This document shows, piece after piece, positions 29,039 through 37,901 of a stretch of 40,282 nucleotides of DNA. Below the pieces are notes generated by a model, which searched no databases, was not told the DNA's origin, and saw nothing but the letters and a program-made list of their open reading frames with translations. The stretch covers positions 1 through 40,282 of the IMG/VR virus record IMGVR_UViG_3300021371_000041; one strand, given 5' to 3'. The position numbers were made by a program, and so were the translations under genes. Origin of the DNA: a virus. Each line of letters opens with the position of its first letter. Positions within the stretch are counted from its first letter, which is position 1.

Positions 29039-29067
29039 ATTATACTGGGTTTCTTGAATGCTGTCAA
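29039..29067 (-). promoter_or_regulatory. consensus sigma70 promoter
   Basis: Minus strand TTGACA (29067-29062), exactly 17 bases, TATAAT (29044-29039): a perfect match to the host consensus. The -35 box overlaps the stop of the glutaredoxin-like gene. It drives 28812-29012. Confidence 0.9.
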
Positions 29068-29303
29068 GCCACAAGCATCCCAGCATCCTTCATATAGTGT
29101 AGTGTGTCACGCATGTTACCAAGATGTTTAGCACCAATGGCAACCTGAGGATATGTAGCCTCAGGTCCAAACTCTGCTTCAAATGCTCTTTGAGTAAAGT
29201 GTTCGTTGAGGTTATACTCTAAGAACTCTCCTCCAATTGCTTTGAGAAGTGCTGCAATACGCTCACACTCTTGACTACCGTTACTGTAAATTACTGCTTG
29301 CAT
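29064..29303 (-). CDS. glutaredoxin-like protein with SxxC motif
   Basis: A 79-residue thioredoxin-fold protein of glutaredoxin length. The start MQAVIYSNGSQECERIAALL has the redox site as S10-Q-E-C13, so the usual first cysteine of CPxC is serine and only the second is kept. T50-Y-P52 corresponds to the TVP loop that binds glutathione, followed by GAKHLGNMRDTLHYMKDAG, as in glutaredoxins. Phage glutaredoxins often serve ribonucleotide reductase; with one non-canonical cysteine this one may act differently or not at all. It lies three bases after the methyltransferase gene. Confidence 0.7.
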   Translation of the reverse strand: MQAVIYSNGSQECERIAALLKAIGGEFLEYNLNEHFTQRAFEAEFGPEATYPQVAIGAKHLGNMRDTLHYMKDAGMLVA

Positions 29304-29306
29304 GGT

Positions 29307-30221
29307 TTATTTTTTAAAATTTGATTTAAGTGTAACTTTAGTAAAATCAATTTCTTTCATATTAATAGGAATGTTAAAATGATCTTTAAGGTCTTCCCAA
29401 TCTTTATTTCTGATTGTTCTTACCTCACCCAAATGATAGCTTACCCAAGAATTACCTACTTTAGAATCATCTTTTACTTGACTCAGATTATTTTCACCAA
29501 TTTTTATATAGTGATCACTGAGATCAAATCCAATGTAGTTCCTACCAAGTTTCTTAGATGCTACTGCTGTTGTACCAGACCCTATGAAAGGATCTAAAAC
29601 AATGTCACCCTCATCTGTAGTCATGAGAACTAAACGCTCTATAAGAGGCACTGGTAACTGACAGGGGTGGTCATCTCTATATTTACCATGTTTAACCCTA
29701 TGAATGTCATTCCATACATCAGGAACAAGAGGTCCGAAAGGATGAATCTGATCCTTCTTGCCACCATAATCTTTCTTTAAGTAAGTTGATTTCCTCTCCC
29801 TCTCATGTGGCATACGAATGGGATATATCTTTGCCTTCTTTATATCCTTCACATAGAATAGAGTGCCATAATGTGCTGGTTGCAGACTTTTACCCATAGG
29901 AGCAGTGGGAGCATACCAAGAAATCCAGTGCTTAAAATGTGCCTTCTGATTAAGAATTTGACAATAATATGTAAGCCACTTTGGAATGTTGTGAATAAAA
30001 ATAGACCCAGTTGGTTTGGTGATACGAACCATCTCCGTGATCCATTCATCACACCACTGCAGATACTCTTCAACCTCAAGAGAGTCATGATAGTTTTTGT
30101 AGTTCTTCTTCAGATTGAACGGAGGGTCTGCAAAGGTCATATCAACAGACTCATCTGGAATCTTCCTGAGAAGATCCAGACAGTCGCCAACAGTAATTTT
30201 GTTCAGGTAGTTATCAAGCAT
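29307..30221 (-). CDS. DNA methyltransferase, beta class (N6-A or N4-C)
   Basis: A 304-residue enzyme from the ATG at 30221. Motif IV (A31-DPPF-N36) precedes motif I (D210-PFIGSGTT-218, followed by GRNYIGFDL), the beta-class order. Motif X-like HPCQLPVPLIERLVL lies at about 185-199, just before motif I, as expected. DPPF/Y is typical of amino methyltransferases acting on adenine N6 or cytosine N4. It overlaps the putative restriction endonuclease by 8 bases and is likely its partner, but many phages carry such enzymes alone for protection. The target sequence cannot be read from the protein. Confidence 0.85.
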   Translation of the reverse strand: MLDNYLNKITVGDCLDLLRKIPDESVDMTFADPPFNLKKNYKNYHDSLEVEEYLQWCDEWITEMVRITKPTGSIFIHNIPKWLTYYCQILNQKAHFKHWISWYAPTAPMGKSLQPAHYGTLFYVKDIKKAKIYPIRMPHERERKSTYLKKDYGGKKDQIHPFGPLVPDVWNDIHRVKHGKYRDDHPCQLPVPLIERLVLMTTDEGDIVLDPFIGSGTTAVASKKLGRNYIGFDLSDHYIKIGENNLSQVKDDSKVGNSWVSYHLGEVRTIRNKDWEDLKDHFNIPINMKEIDFTKVTLKSNFKK

Positions 30222-31206
30222 CTGCAAATTTTTCGGGGAAATATTCTTTCAGTAATTCTACAAAGCGATCAAGTTCATCGGTATGGAATGTAAAGACATC
30301 ATCAAAACCTTCACACATACGCTCAGCATCGTTAGTCCTAGCATACCAACCAACACCATCAATAAAACCAACAAAGATAGTATTAGGATAGTATTTTTTG
30401 ATGAGAGGATCCACTCCATTCTCTGTCTTCGCTTTGTCTCCATTAGCCGAACTAGTAGTGGTGTTGTAAGAAGACTCAATAACCACAAGAGGATTTACCT
30501 TGTTGGGGATCATAAAATCCATAGTACGCTTGAGAGTTTTTTCATTCTCAGCAAGCAAAGGAAGATCGCACCCACTATCATAGGTAATATTAGCATTGTT
30601 TAGGATAGTTTGCAAGACTGTCTCTGCATTATTACCCTTCCTAGCAGCATAGCTACCCCTCTCTTTGTAACGCATTATAGTATCAAGAGTCTGCTCAGTA
30701 AGAGAAGTAACATTATTAATAACAGAAAAGGTCATCTTGGACGAATTATACTGGGGAATCATCTTACCAAGAATAGTTTCGCTACCTTCAAAAAATATAT
30801 TCACTATCGCTTTCCTGAAGTATTCATTCTCCAGGGTCATCTTCTCAATTTTCTTAGCACCCCATTCAGTCTTGTTACCACTACTATTCCACTTGTCTTT
30901 ATAAAAAACAGTGGTAAAGTCGTCAAAGTCTTCATTCCTTATAATAGTTACAATCCTTTGTAGCATCTCAAAAGACACTGCAGTAGCACCAAGGACTGCC
31001 TTCAAAGCATCTTCTTTACACAGGAAACGATCAAGAACATCTTTAGTGCAACCATGCTCGATCATATCTTCTTTCAAATCTAAGACAAGAAAGACCAACT
31101 TGTCAATATGAGACTGCATCTCTTTCTCAAAAAGTTCATTGTTAAAGTAGTAAGTATTCTTTTCACGAACTGTTTTGAGTTTGTCAGCAGTGGAACGAAG
31201 AAGCAT
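30214..31206 (-). CDS. putative type II restriction endonuclease
   Basis: The start at 31206 is chosen because the longer frame begins inside the terminator and upstream of the TATAAT box at 31233-31228; the product is 330 residues. The C-terminal half holds a PD-(D/E)XK-like core: E195 (KGNNAETVLQTIL), D230 (LKRTMDFMIPN), then LVVIESSYNTTTSSANGDKA with E244 where the E-x-K normally sits; the lysine is replaced, as in some DpnII/BamHI-like enzymes. The N-terminal half is helical. It overlaps the methyltransferase by 8 bases, the layout of a restriction-modification pair. Family by pattern; specificity unknown. Confidence 0.6.
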   Translation of the reverse strand: MLLRSTADKLKTVREKNTYYFNNELFEKEMQSHIDKLVFLVLDLKEDMIEHGCTKDVLDRFLCKEDALKAVLGATAVSFEMLQRIVTIIRNEDFDDFTTVFYKDKWNSSGNKTEWGAKKIEKMTLENEYFRKAIVNIFFEGSETILGKMIPQYNSSKMTFSVINNVTSLTEQTLDTIMRYKERGSYAARKGNNAETVLQTILNNANITYDSGCDLPLLAENEKTLKRTMDFMIPNKVNPLVVIESSYNTTTSSANGDKAKTENGVDPLIKKYYPNTIFVGFIDGVGWYARTNDAERMCEGFDDVFTFHTDELDRFVELLKEYFPEKFADA

Positions 31207-31227: not shown

Positions 31228-31233
31228 ATTATA
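31228..31233 (-). promoter_or_regulatory. -10 box (TATAAT) of the restriction-modification unit
   Basis: A perfect TATAAT 21 bases upstream of the ATG at 31206. The -35 position falls in the loop of the preceding terminator and reads CACACA, a weak match. The promoter would start the endonuclease-methyltransferase-glutaredoxin transcript. Confidence 0.55.
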
Positions 31234-31237
31234 CAAT

Positions 31238-31261
31238 AAAAAACCACCCCTGTGTGGGTGG
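31238..31261 (-). terminator. intrinsic terminator after the purine unit
   Basis: Minus strand CCACCC-ACACAG-GGGTGG followed by TTTTTT. It ends transcription coming from purM and precedes the next promoter by a few bases. Confidence 0.8.
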
Positions 31262-31274
31262 TAGGACAGTTTGG

Positions 31275-31310
31275 TCACTGGATTGCAAGGGGTTGCAGTC
31301 GGTCAAGAAT
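31275..31310 (-). pseudogene. relic of a second purC 3' end
   Basis: Twelve codons reading ILDRLQPLAIQ-stop, identical in protein to the last twelve codons of the intact purC (33231-33266). The DNA differs at five of 36 positions, all third codon positions (ATT/ATC, CTG/CTA, CCC/CCA, CTT/CTG, CAG/CAA). Upstream of this the frame continues without a match. It lies between purM and the terminator, about 2 kb from purC, and is the leftover of a diverged purC copy. Confidence 0.75.
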
Positions 31311-31352
31311 CTGACCGTTACCAGCATACACCGCATTTTGTCTCTCACATCT

Positions 31353-32282
31353 TCATTTAACTTCTCCAATAATCCAAGACCTCATACCAAATGGAGTATC
31401 AGCAATCAAAGATTGAGTTAGTGTTGCTACCTCTTGTGGCACAACTAAACAAAATCCAATACCACAGTTGAATACATTACGCATCTCATCCTCAGCAATG
31501 TCTCCTGCCTCCTGGATCTTGGTAAAGAGTTCTGGTCTCTCCCAAGCAGAGTAATCAACATCAACCGTAAGACCTGCTGGAAGGCATCGTGGGAGGTTCT
31601 CAGGCAGTCCTCCACCTGTAATGTGTGCCATGCCTAAGATAGGAACTTCATCCAACAGATATTGAATGAGACGGGCATAGATGGTGGTTGGCACTAACAA
31701 CTCTGGCATCTCCTTGTAGTAAATATAATTTCTCCACAGCATATCATTGATGAGTGTGTATCCATTACTATGAAGACCACTACTCTCAATACCAATGACT
31801 ACATCACCCACTTGAATGTTTCTGCCATCAATGATTTCGTTCTTCTCTACAATACCAGTGCAGAAACCAGCAAGGTCATAGTCAGTTGCTCTAAAGTGTT
31901 CAGCGGTCTCACCACCTAACAATTCCATCCCTGCCATAGCACAACCAACATTAATTCCATACACAATGTCACTGACGTTAGCATCAAGTGATTTAGTAGA
32001 GATATAATCCAGAAAATATAATGGTTTAGCACCAGAACATATAACGTCATTGACGCACATAGCAACGAGATCCTGACCAATAGTTGTATAATCACGGGCA
32101 ATCCTACAGATATTAATTTTAGTTCCGACACCATCAGCACCAGATACCAACACGGGTTTCTCATATCCTGATGGGATCTCCATCATTCCACTAAACCCAC
32201 CAACACTAGGTGCTAGTGCTTTGATATACTCTACAAAGGAACGTCCCTTGATAATATCAACTCCAGAAGTTTTGTAGTCCAT
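31353..32282 (-). CDS. purM: phosphoribosylaminoimidazole synthetase (AIR synthetase)
   Basis: A 309-residue enzyme closing the imidazole ring in purine synthesis (FGAM to AIR, ATP-dependent). Motifs: S47-GADGVGTK-55, DLVAMCVND (71-79), GGETAE (123-128), GLHSNG and HITGGGLPENLPR, ending with FNCGIGF. Slightly shorter than bacterial PurM (about 340) but complete. The start is coupled to the preceding gene as TAATG. Cyanophage copies are thought to keep up purine supply for DNA synthesis. Downstream it runs into the purC relic and terminator. Confidence 0.93.
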   Translation of the reverse strand: MDYKTSGVDIIKGRSFVEYIKALAPSVGGFSGMMEIPSGYEKPVLVSGADGVGTKINICRIARDYTTIGQDLVAMCVNDVICSGAKPLYFLDYISTKSLDANVSDIVYGINVGCAMAGMELLGGETAEHFRATDYDLAGFCTGIVEKNEIIDGRNIQVGDVVIGIESSGLHSNGYTLINDMLWRNYIYYKEMPELLVPTTIYARLIQYLLDEVPILGMAHITGGGLPENLPRCLPAGLTVDVDYSAWERPELFTKIQEAGDIAEDEMRNVFNCGIGFCLVVPQEVATLTQSLIADTPFGMRSWIIGEVK

Positions 32283-32602
32283 TAGTAAATTTCTCCTTTA
32301 GCGATTTGTTCCTGATATCGAGACATGACATCACGCAAGTATTTTTCTGCTTTTCTTTTACTAAAACCTGCTAGTTTCCATACGATGTAGTCCACCGTTG
32401 GAATACAAATAGGATTCCAACCTACAAATCCATGTGTCTCTCCAGAATTCATAACCCAACAGGGAGCATCATCATTCTCAAGGTCTAATGATTTACGATA
32501 CTCTTCCTCACCAAACATAACAACTGCTCTCTCAGCAGCATTCAAACTCTTGAAGCAATCAAAAGCATTCTTTCTAATCTCATCAGGGATGTGGTGTTTC
32601 AT
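32282..32602 (-). CDS. hypothetical protein between nuclease and purM (106 aa)
   Basis: A 106-residue product starting MKHHIPDEIRKNAFDCFKSL, with a W/N-rich centre (CWVMNSGETHGFVGWNPICI) and a helical basic tail (KRKAEKYLRDVMSRYQEQIA). It is five bases after the nuclease gene and coupled to purM. No known family. The helix-turn-helix-like C-terminus (LAGFSKRKAEKYLRDVM) could bind DNA, weakly supported. Confidence 0.65.
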   Translation of the reverse strand: MKHHIPDEIRKNAFDCFKSLNAAERAVVMFGEEEYRKSLDLENDDAPCWVMNSGETHGFVGWNPICIPTVDYIVWKLAGFSKRKAEKYLRDVMSRYQEQIAKGEIY

Positions 32603-32607
32603 TTAAT

Positions 32608-33234
32608 TTAAATTCTATAAGTAACCTTGAATTTTTCATAATCTTTTTTTAATTCTGATAATGACATTCCAGTTTTATCAGGTAAGTCTTTTACTGGAAC
32701 TAACCATATTACATCATCCATAATGCTAATGAATGCCATATAATCAACCAAGTGTTTGTAAAGTTGTTTATCAGTATGATTTGTCATAAGATGAAAAGAC
32801 ATCTTTCCAGTTTGTGCAGTTGATTTTACCTGAACTCTTTCAAAATTTTTCCCATCTTTTGAGATGATAAAATCAGATCCCCAAATATCTTCAACTGGTG
32901 TGTAAACTTGATAACCTTTTACCATCATCAAGTTTTTAAATTTATCCTCACAAATTCTTCCAAGACCCTTTTTTAGTGTAGCAATCTTAACATCTTCAGC
33001 ATTGAACAAACTATTTTTAAGAGTTTGATTTATACCAATCACATCTTGGTATTTTTTCTTTGCTTCAATAATTGCTTCATCTTTATTTTTAGTTTTAAGA
33101 GACCAATGAGTTCCCCTCTTCCATCCAGGTTTTTTTAAGATGTGAAGATACCAAATTGGTTTTCCATATCTTAAAAAAATAGTAGCATCTGGATCATCGT
33201 TAAATCGTGTCGCATTTTGGAAGACCTCACTCAT
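32608..33234 (-). CDS. PD-(D/E)XK nuclease, homing-endonuclease-like
   Basis: A 208-residue protein. The nuclease core: E96 (GRICEDKFKNLM), then W118-GSDFII with D121, and F131-ERVQVKSTA with Q135-V-K137, a D...Q-x-K version of the PD-(D/E)XK motif, as in I-Ssp6803I-like phage and cyanobacterial endonucleases. The N-terminal 65 residues (WYLHILKKPGWKRGTHWSLK, AIIEAKKKYQDVIG) look like a separate DNA-binding arm. The start overlaps the purC stop (ATGA) and it sits between purC and purM, a place where a free-standing homing endonuclease could have landed. Family by motif; homing activity is inference. Confidence 0.65.
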   Translation of the reverse strand: MSEVFQNATRFNDDPDATIFLRYGKPIWYLHILKKPGWKRGTHWSLKTKNKDEAIIEAKKKYQDVIGINQTLKNSLFNAEDVKIATLKKGLGRICEDKFKNLMMVKGYQVYTPVEDIWGSDFIISKDGKNFERVQVKSTAQTGKMSFHLMTNHTDKQLYKHLVDYMAFISIMDDVIWLVPVKDLPDKTGMSLSELKKDYEKFKVTYRI

Positions 33235-33929
33235 TGGATTGCCAGTGGTTGTAGTCGGTCAAGGATATAACGATAGGCAGGGACAATATCACCTTCATCG
33301 TTTCTGAATAGATCTTTATCAAATCTCTCATCACCACCAATCTTCCACAATCTCATACTATCAGGACTGATCTCATCGGCAAGGAGCAACTCACCATGAG
33401 CAGTGTATCCATACTCAATCTTAAAGTCAACCAGATCAATGCCCATGATGTAGAACATCTGACGAAGGTAGTCATTGATCCGTAATGTCATCTCAATGAA
33501 AGGTTCAGGATCATATCCCATTAGTTTCACACGATCTCTCGTAAGTAATGGGTCATGCTTACTATCATCCTTCAGGAAAAACTCAACAATAGGATGTGGT
33601 AGTGAGTAACCTTCTTGGAGAGTTGTCTCACGAACAATAGATCCAGCAGCACGATTACGACAGATAACTTCCAGTGGAACAATATCTACCTTCTTACAAA
33701 TCATCTTGTTAGCACCAACCATATTAATATAATGTGTTGGGATATGTTCTTTGGCAAGTGTCTCAAAGATAAGAGCAGAGATACTACAACAAAGAGAACC
33801 TTTACCCAGTGGATGATCAACCATCTCACCATTACCAGCAGTTACCTTATCGTGATACTCAATGATGACTTGTTGGGCATCATCACCTTGATAAACTGTT
33901 TTAACTTTACCTTCAATAATTACTTTCAT
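33231..33929 (-). CDS. purC: SAICAR synthetase
   Basis: A 232-residue enzyme that joins CAIR and aspartate (ATP-dependent). Motifs: start IIEGKVKTVYQG, then DHPLGKGSLCCSIS, EVICRNRAAGSIVRE (residues about 88-102), LMGYDPEPFIEMTLRINDYL, GIDLVDFKIEYG and ADEISPDSMRLW. Full length for the family. Start couples to the previous stop as ATGA and its stop couples to the nuclease gene the same way. Its last twelve codons recur as a relic at 31275-31310. Confidence 0.94.
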   Translation of the reverse strand: MKVIIEGKVKTVYQGDDAQQVIIEYHDKVTAGNGEMVDHPLGKGSLCCSISALIFETLAKEHIPTHYINMVGANKMICKKVDIVPLEVICRNRAAGSIVRETTLQEGYSLPHPIVEFFLKDDSKHDPLLTRDRVKLMGYDPEPFIEMTLRINDYLRQMFYIMGIDLVDFKIEYGYTAHGELLLADEISPDSMRLWKIGGDERFDKDLFRNDEGDIVPAYRYILDRLQPLAIQ

Positions 33930-34787: not shown

Positions 34788-34960
34788 GGTCGGTTGATCT
34801 CAGCAAGGATTTCGGCAAGTGCTTCATTGATAATTTGCTTCAACTCCATACGTTCTTCTGGTGTGAAGATAGTACGTGTCTTTACTGGCATAGGAGCATA
34901 ACTACTTGGTTTCTTTGATTTACCAGGAAAACTCATTCCCTGCGTGTCAATTTTGTCCAT
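34784..34960 (-). CDS. small basic hypothetical protein (58 aa)
   Basis: ATG at 34960 gives MDKIDTQGMSFPGKSKKPSS, then YAPMPVKTRTIFTPEERMEL and a C-terminal helix ending AEILAEINRP. It overlaps purS by 4 bases (ATGA) and the Zn-finger-like gene by 14. A helical C-terminus and a disordered basic N-terminus are apparent. Function unknown. Confidence 0.6.
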   Translation of the reverse strand: MDKIDTQGMSFPGKSKKPSSYAPMPVKTRTIFTPEERMELKQIINEALAEILAEINRP

Positions 34961-35099
34961 TGTTCTTTTTCACCCAGCAAGGTTTACATAACGAATTCTT
35001 GTATCTTTTCTCGGATGGGACATAGCATCCGACCTGAGGTGTTTTATTCGCTGGAAACATTTTACCACACCCAGAGCATTTTGTCTCCCACATTTTCAT
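34947..35099 (-). CDS. small zinc-ribbon-like protein (50 aa)
   Basis: ATG at 35099 gives MKMWETKCSGCGKMFPANKT, then VPSEKRYKNSLCKPCWVKKN. Two CxxC pairs (C8/C11 and C38/C41) about 27 residues apart form a zinc-ribbon pattern, as in phage nuclease-associated or RNA-polymerase-binding zinc fingers. The start overlaps the previous stop as ATGA. The fold is likely; the target is unknown. Confidence 0.65.
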   Translation of the reverse strand: MKMWETKCSGCGKMFPANKTPQVGCYVPSEKRYKNSLCKPCWVKKNNGQN

Positions 35100-36836: not shown

Positions 36837-37901
36837 TTAATTTAAAAGTATTAGAGCACCAGTAATAGCAACATTTCCAGTAGCAGCAATGGATATGGTA
36901 GTGCCTGCTGTTTGAGTTATAGCAGAACCTGCTGTTTGAGATATATTAGTGCTTGCTGTTTGAGTTATAGCAGCACCAGCATTTTGAGTTATAGAAGCAC
37001 CTGCTGTTTGATCTATAGCACCGCCTGCAGTAATACTTGCGAGACTACCCGCAGAGAATAAAATAGCATCTGTTGCTTTTACAGAAGCACCGCCAATAAG
37101 AGTGTTGACACTATAAGAATTATCTCTCGCTTTGATTAGTGGAGGTGTTCCTGGTTTTCCCGCAATGACAGTTTGCGATACACCACCAACCCATTGCTTA
37201 TAATCACCAAGAATAGACCAATTAACATGTCCAGGAGAAACAATGTTTTGTGATGCTCTAGGATCAAATTGTACAGATGTTTCTTCACCAGCACCAAATG
37301 TCATCTTCTGACCAAAGACAATATCTTTTTTGTTGTCTACAATTTGCTCAATAGTGCCAGCACTCATTTGAATAGTGCCACCACCATTAGATCCTGCCTG
37401 AATGAATACTTGTGATTTTCCAATCAAAAATAATTCTTCTTCAGCAGTAATGATAATTTTCTGTGCTTTAATATGCCTTTCACTACCAGTAGCTTCTTCT
37501 ACAATATCACCATACGCAATAATGTTTAATGCTTCATCACCATCATCGCCACAATTATATTCAATGTGAGTTACTTGCTCATGTTTTTGTTGCTGTCCAT
37601 GAGTGTGTATACACAATTTTCCACTGGAAGCACCCTTTTCTACATTTTTTTCTCCAGTAACAATAACAATAGACCCATTGTTTTGGAGTGATAAAAACCC
37701 AGCAGTACCCTCAGGACCATCAATTCTTAGTGTTGATGTCTGACCATCAGGATACATGCGTTCATAGATCTGTGAACGAGTCAGCACACCTTTCCAACAT
37801 GTTGCGAAAACAGGTCCATTTGCTAGGCTCTGTGTTTCATCTGCCGTGGTTTGTTTGAAGATACCTGTGGGGTATTGATTAGCGGGTACAGCGTGTGACA
37901 T
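36837..37901 (-). CDS. gp5-like baseplate central spike protein (354 aa)
   Basis: The start at 37901 is coupled to the preceding stop as TAATG; it gives MSHAVPANQYPTGIFKQTTA. The N-terminal 110 residues form a gp27/VgrG-type OB-like region without the lysozyme domain of T4 gp5. The central part is beta-rich with QIVDNKKDIVFGQKMTFGAG. The last 60 residues have a clear octapeptide repeat (AAITQTAS-TNISQTAG-SAITQTAG-TTISIAAT), the triple-stranded needle seen in T4 gp5. It is encoded by five 24-base repeats at 36904-37023. A spike or needle of the tail tip, with confidence by repeat and context. Confidence 0.75.
   Translation of the reverse strand: MSHAVPANQYPTGIFKQTTADETQSLANGPVFATCWKGVLTRSQIYERMYPDGQTSTLRIDGPEGTAGFLSLQNNGSIVIVTGEKNVEKGASSGKLCIHTHGQQQKHEQVTHIEYNCGDDGDEALNIIAYGDIVEEATGSERHIKAQKIIITAEEELFLIGKSQVFIQAGSNGGGTIQMSAGTIEQIVDNKKDIVFGQKMTFGAGEETSVQFDPRASQNIVSPGHVNWSILGDYKQWVGGVSQTVIAGKPGTPPLIKARDNSYSVNTLIGGASVKATDAILFSAGSLASITAGGAIDQTAGASITQNAGAAITQTASTNISQTAGSAITQTAGTTISIAATGNVAITGALILLN
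36904..37023 (-). repeat. five tandem 24-base repeats in the spike gene
   Basis: Plus-strand unit CCTGCTGTTTGAGTTATAGCA plus three bases, five times with some variation, each giving one octapeptide of the beta-helical needle. Confidence 0.8.

Follow-up and report, generated by a model that had tools for sequence, protein, structure and literature searches.

Phage genomes are mosaics, the joints of which have usually been erased. For the homing endonucleases of T4, illegitimate one-sided repair of double-strand breaks at microhomology has been described (Parker et al., 1999; reviewed in PMC2988022). Phage nuclease genes are also found at the boundaries of genetic exchange, in what have been called 'HEG islands' (PMC10448857). 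In cyanomyoviruses, mobile cassettes flanked by endonuclease genes and variable regions are known, and the nucleases are suspected of making these regions recombinogenic (PMC3037559). Our literature searches on cyanophage purC and homing, on cyanophage restriction–modification (R-M) and illegitimate recombination, and on gene fragments at joins returned nothing specific to scars of the kind described here.

The window analysed is the whole 40,282-nucleotide IMG/VR virus record IMGVR_UViG_3300021371_000041, and all features of the locus described below lie on its minus strand. The resident, intact purC gene (33231–33929) is followed by a PD-(D/E)XK nuclease gene (PF11645; 32608–33234) that starts within the purC stop codon, by the conserved small gene h106 (phrog_1132; 32282–32602), which normally follows purC, and by purM (31353–32282), the left neighbour of the scar. 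The order purC–nuclease–h106 is also present in contig L018. Beyond the scar, a terminator hairpin combined with a TATAAT promoter-like module (31228–31271) precedes a restriction-endonuclease-like gene (RE; 30214–31206), an N6/N4 DNA methyltransferase gene (29307–30227) and the glutaredoxin-like gene grx (29064–29303), which is the right neighbour of the R-M unit. Neither the nuclease nor the RE profile found a relative when searched against solved structures. An origin of the scar from a tRNA or attachment site was rejected, as there is no tRNA nearby. The best self-match of the window is located elsewhere, in diverged direct repeats within a baseplate lysozyme-like gene (36904–37031).

The minus strand from 31310 to 31275 carries a displaced purC 3′ end that encodes ILDRLQPLAIQ and a stop codon in an intact frame. 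It thus consists of 11 codons plus the stop rather than the 12 that had been counted from the sequence alone, and it directly precedes the terminator (hairpin 31262–31243 followed by a T run), as had been stated. Compared with the terminus of the resident gene, the relic has ATT instead of ATC for the first isoleucine, CTG instead of CTA for the second leucine, CCC instead of CCA for the proline, CTT instead of CTG for the third leucine and CAG instead of CAA for the last glutamine; the codons CTT GAC CGA, CAA, GCA ATC and TGA are shared. The two tails are therefore identical in 31 of 36 bases, and all five differences are synonymous third positions. When the window was shuffled 300 times under a first-order Markov model, the closest 36-nucleotide match to the resident tail had 25 identical bases (mean 21.4), which excludes a chance match. 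BLAST returns the pair with E = 2e-4 when the whole window is compared with itself and with E = 5.5e-7 for a local query. The probability that five random single changes in this tail would all be synonymous is about 0.002, and the relic sequence therefore diverged while it was coding. The second, diverged purC 3′ end proposed by the sequence-only reading is thus real. The homology extends at least 4–5 nucleotides further in the 5′ direction, to about 31315 (TCAG), where it matches purC of L093 and L102, which has the form RQILDRL.

Between the purC tail and purM lies a second gene piece that the sequence-only reading had missed. Positions 31318–31356 are the decayed head of a second copy of a small cysteine-motif gene, here named zf, and this head overlaps the purM stop through ATGA. 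It reads ATG AAG ATG TGA and then GAG ACA AAA TGC (M K M stop E T K C), after which the frame shifts. Over 39 nucleotides it is 82% identical to the start of the ORF 35099–34947, the intact zf gene of the window (34947–35099; 50 amino acids; phrog_4923); zf is found in 173 phage records. The layout is consequently purM, zf head, purC tail, terminator, RE and methyltransferase. The fusion point of the zf head and the purC tail falls at 31311–31318, as judged by comparison with zf of L055 and L039 and with purC of L093 and L102. The two sides have no extended similarity, only short words, which are clearest in the scars of L093 and L102 discussed below; at the join of the window itself a few bases at most are shared, and these are blurred by decay. 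The earlier proposal of a simple crossover inside purC does not hold as worded, since what lies on the left of the join is the start of a different gene, fused without extended homology.

Both truncated genes are out of context, and each can be traced to an arrangement that occurs in nature. A scan of IMG/VR for the purM–zf junction identified five cyanophage contigs (L037–L041) in which an intact zf gene shares ATGA with the end of purM as in the window, with the order purC–h106–purM–zf–h58–purS–h66–grx in L039. A search with RE led to L016, in which purC is followed directly by the terminator, RE and the methyltransferase and only then by h106 and purM. The sequence-only reading had predicted that some genome would have purC immediately ahead of the terminator and R-M unit, and L016 has precisely this order. 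The window and L016 align without a break over 2,013 columns at 85.5% identity, from the purC tail through the methyltransferase, and a pattern scan for the junction of purC stop and terminator matched in L016 only. We consider it probable that 31275–31356 is a two-part scar in which an arm ending in purM–zf was joined illegitimately, by short homology, to an arm carrying the purC tail and R-M unit of another phage, possibly by one-sided repair of a double-strand break.

The origin of the relic tail bears on this reading. Over 40 nucleotides, it has 7 differences to the resident purC, three to L093 and four each to L057, L102 and L125, and 23 of the 47 distinct purC tails in the panel are closer to it than the resident tail is. 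Immediately ahead of ILDRL the relic has a codon consistent with CAG, the RQ form of L093 and L102, and not with the RY of the resident gene. This comparison of 40 nucleotides, made without a phylogeny, supports the assignment of the relic to the purC of another phage lineage. The notion that the relic diverged as a working purC thus stands on the synonymous changes, but the lineage in which it did so appears to be that of another phage. A local tandem duplication of the block from zf to purC, followed by loss of most of the second copy, would account for the presence of zf and purC elsewhere in the window in matching order. We regard it as very unlikely, because the relic is closer to the purC of other phages than to the resident copy, which it should resemble most; moreover, the terminator and R-M unit behind the relic match the purC–R-M block of L016. 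The alternative that ILDRLQ after purM belongs to another conserved gene is contradicted by the isolates, where each of 173 phage records with purC contains a single copy of the tail.

The exact scar pattern was searched for in IMG/VR without a match, and the junction is seen in one assembly, the near-identical contig L017/L043 starting inside RE and thus short of it. As the window is a metagenomic contig and no second contig crosses the join, an assembly chimera of two co-occurring phages has to be weighed. The nonsense codon and the frameshift in the zf head and the blurred join would be unexpected for a fresh chimera of intact genomes, and both outer flanks of the locus match a single relative, ACG-2014j, at about 90%; we hold a chimera to be highly improbable.

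The RE and methyltransferase genes are adjacent, match the Pfam families RE_BanI/DpnII and N6_N4_Mtase above cut-off and are conserved as a pair in L014–L016, and they are likely to form a putative Type II R-M system. Among the annotated phages of the collection, RE has only one match, a distant one in Streptococcus phage Javan191 (24% identity). The pair occupies four genomic positions: behind purM in the window (29307–31206), behind purC in L016 (641–2534), behind a GIY-YIG-like gene and a small ORF in L014 (1074–2997) and behind psbD in L015 (8001–9924). A similar terminator–promoter sequence precedes the unit in L014 and L015, as in the window and L016. We also note that a composite module, roughly AAACTGTCCACCACYCC-TTGACA-GGGGTGGTTTTTTATTG-TATAAT, recurs in about 15 cyanophage intergenic spots, among them the window (31228–31271, minus strand), L001:6337, L002:5327, L003:7001, L004:6581, L014:1035, L015:7960, L016:573, L062:1519, L077:811, L087:2954, L102:4358 and L123:1689. 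The −35-like word is often located inside the terminator loop and the T run lies within a 17-nucleotide spacer in front of TATAAT, which suggests that the terminator overlaps the promoter.

When all retrieved loci were scanned in six frames, two further purC tails were found outside purC, in L093 and L102. In each of these independent scars, the last 30–50 nucleotides of purC are fused to the head of h106 (L093:4086–4133 and L102:4639–4704). The order in L093 is purC, a gene for 82 amino acids, the fused h106 head and purC tail, an HNH-like gene and h106, and in L102 it is purC, small genes, the fused piece and a gene that we call MKLIKF. The cassettes that flank these two scars occur scar-free behind purC in other contigs: the gene for 79–82 amino acids in L071, L094 and L099, the HNH-like gene in S-ShM2/L008 and L065, a gene for 73 amino acids in L001 and MKLIKF in L053 and L106. 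The gene behind purC of S-ShM2 is annotated as an endonuclease in its RefSeq record; it has no Pfam match, and in our reading of its sequence it appears HNH-like. Both joins fall within short similar words (ATCCYTGAC and CCTGNC, respectively), and all three purC breakpoints are situated about 30–50 nucleotides before the stop. This clustering does not merely arise from having searched with short tails, because no locus of the panel contains a longer second piece of purC, and it is suggestive of a cleavage site. Such scars are rare, those of L093 and L102 being known from contig sequence alone. That the stubs have been retained as functional elements, for example as a short peptide or an RNA element, would be in line with the intact frame of the purC tail and with the similar stubs in these two contigs. 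We consider this extremely unlikely: the tail is not read through from any in-frame start codon, the head of zf is disrupted, the head portion is not the same in all scars, and a second tail was found at none of the 173 places in the 173 isolate records with purC.

The additional scars also help to weigh another route to the same layout, in which a whole segment of zf, purC, terminator and R-M unit was inserted behind purM at the ATGA and later suffered an internal deletion from about codon 13 of zf to about codon 221 of purC. An order in which zf immediately precedes purC is natural in S-ShM2, Syn1, S-RIM44 and L064, and purC before the R-M unit occurs in L016. This route is nevertheless unlikely in our estimate, as it needs two illegitimate events and not one, while purM–zf is already a natural junction. 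Furthermore, a deletion fails to explain the scars of L093 and L102, because their heads derive from h106, which precedes purC in no locus seen.

Under the preferred reading, the illegitimate joining of two phage arms, the junction in an arm ending in purC–nuclease–h106–purM–zf would lie a few codons into zf. The other arm would begin with the last approximately 40 nucleotides of the purC of another phage, followed by the terminator, RE and the methyltransferase, and the two would have been joined at a few matching bases at most. The product would stack two cassettes that are elsewhere found singly behind purC and leave over the fused stub, which is now decaying. In a cell infected by both phages, the trigger may have been a double-strand break close to the conserved 3′ end of purC. 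Repair from the DNA of the second phage would have been homologous at one flank of the break and illegitimate, by microhomology, at the other flank; the nucleases encoded behind purC are natural suspects for such a break. As to direction, h66 and grx are adjacent in ACG-2014j, the relative of the outer flanks, and L055 has purC–h106–purM between h66 and grx without the R-M unit. This leans towards a later arrival of the R-M arm. A donor role of the purM–zf arm would, on the other hand, account more readily for the intact zf upstream of purC. The purC–purM stretch itself is a fine mosaic without a single donor, as judged from sliding best hits. Around purC and purM, the small accessory genes g99, zf, h58, purS, h66 and h106 occur in many different orders (L088, L096, L085, L066, L082 and others) and are often joined by ATGA stop–start overlaps, which suggests exchange at gene ends.

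The place behind purC holds varied occupants. PD-(D/E)XK genes are found there in the window and L018 (and, below cut-off, in L113), HNH genes in L087 (and, below cut-off, in L062), a T5orf172-domain gene in L002, an MjaI-type R-M pair in L058, a methyltransferase in L099, and in other cases the R-M pair considered here (L016) or uncharacterized small genes. This place is therefore a cassette slot rich in nuclease and methylase genes, and a nuclease gene lies beside the exchange site in the window and in relatives; not all cassettes beside the L093 and L102 scars encode nucleases. A broader and tentative proposal, possible rather than probable, is that in cyanomyoviruses the 3′ end of purC serves as an assembly point prone to breakage: rival alleles would be cut 30–50 nucleotides before the stop by nucleases from the genes that follow purC, one-sided illegitimate repair would stack cassettes head to tail, and each event would leave a countable stub.

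In contrast to most mosaic joints, this one can be read: both parental arrangements exist in nature, and three scars of like build cluster in a stretch of about 20 bases of one gene. Readable scars make general mosaicism testable, through the question of whether a nuclease encoded behind purC cuts there. Like the repair described for T4 homing endonucleases, the event behind the scar would combine homology on one side with short matching words on the other, and such repair would leave truncated gene pieces. Unlike in T4, the cyanophage scar is a fossil only, and cutting of purC by a nuclease is putative. The locus resembles 'HEG islands' in having nuclease genes beside conserved genes at exchange points; it differs in that a flanking pair of homing nucleases is not shown, the cargo includes an R-M pair and the scar is preserved. 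As with the mobile cassettes of PMC3037559, accessory-gene cassettes are found at variable positions in T4-like cyanophages; the text of that paper does not mention purC, whereas here the exchange point is the place behind it. The adjacent endonuclease and N6/N4 methyltransferase genes are arranged as in Type II R-M pairs with a BanI/DpnII-like endonuclease; the putative pair of the window differs in being borne by a cyanophage and in occupying four genomic positions. A splice of two phage genomes probably stacked a nuclease and purine block beside this R-M unit in a marine cyanophage, and the scar points to one way in which a phage-borne R-M unit can change its address.
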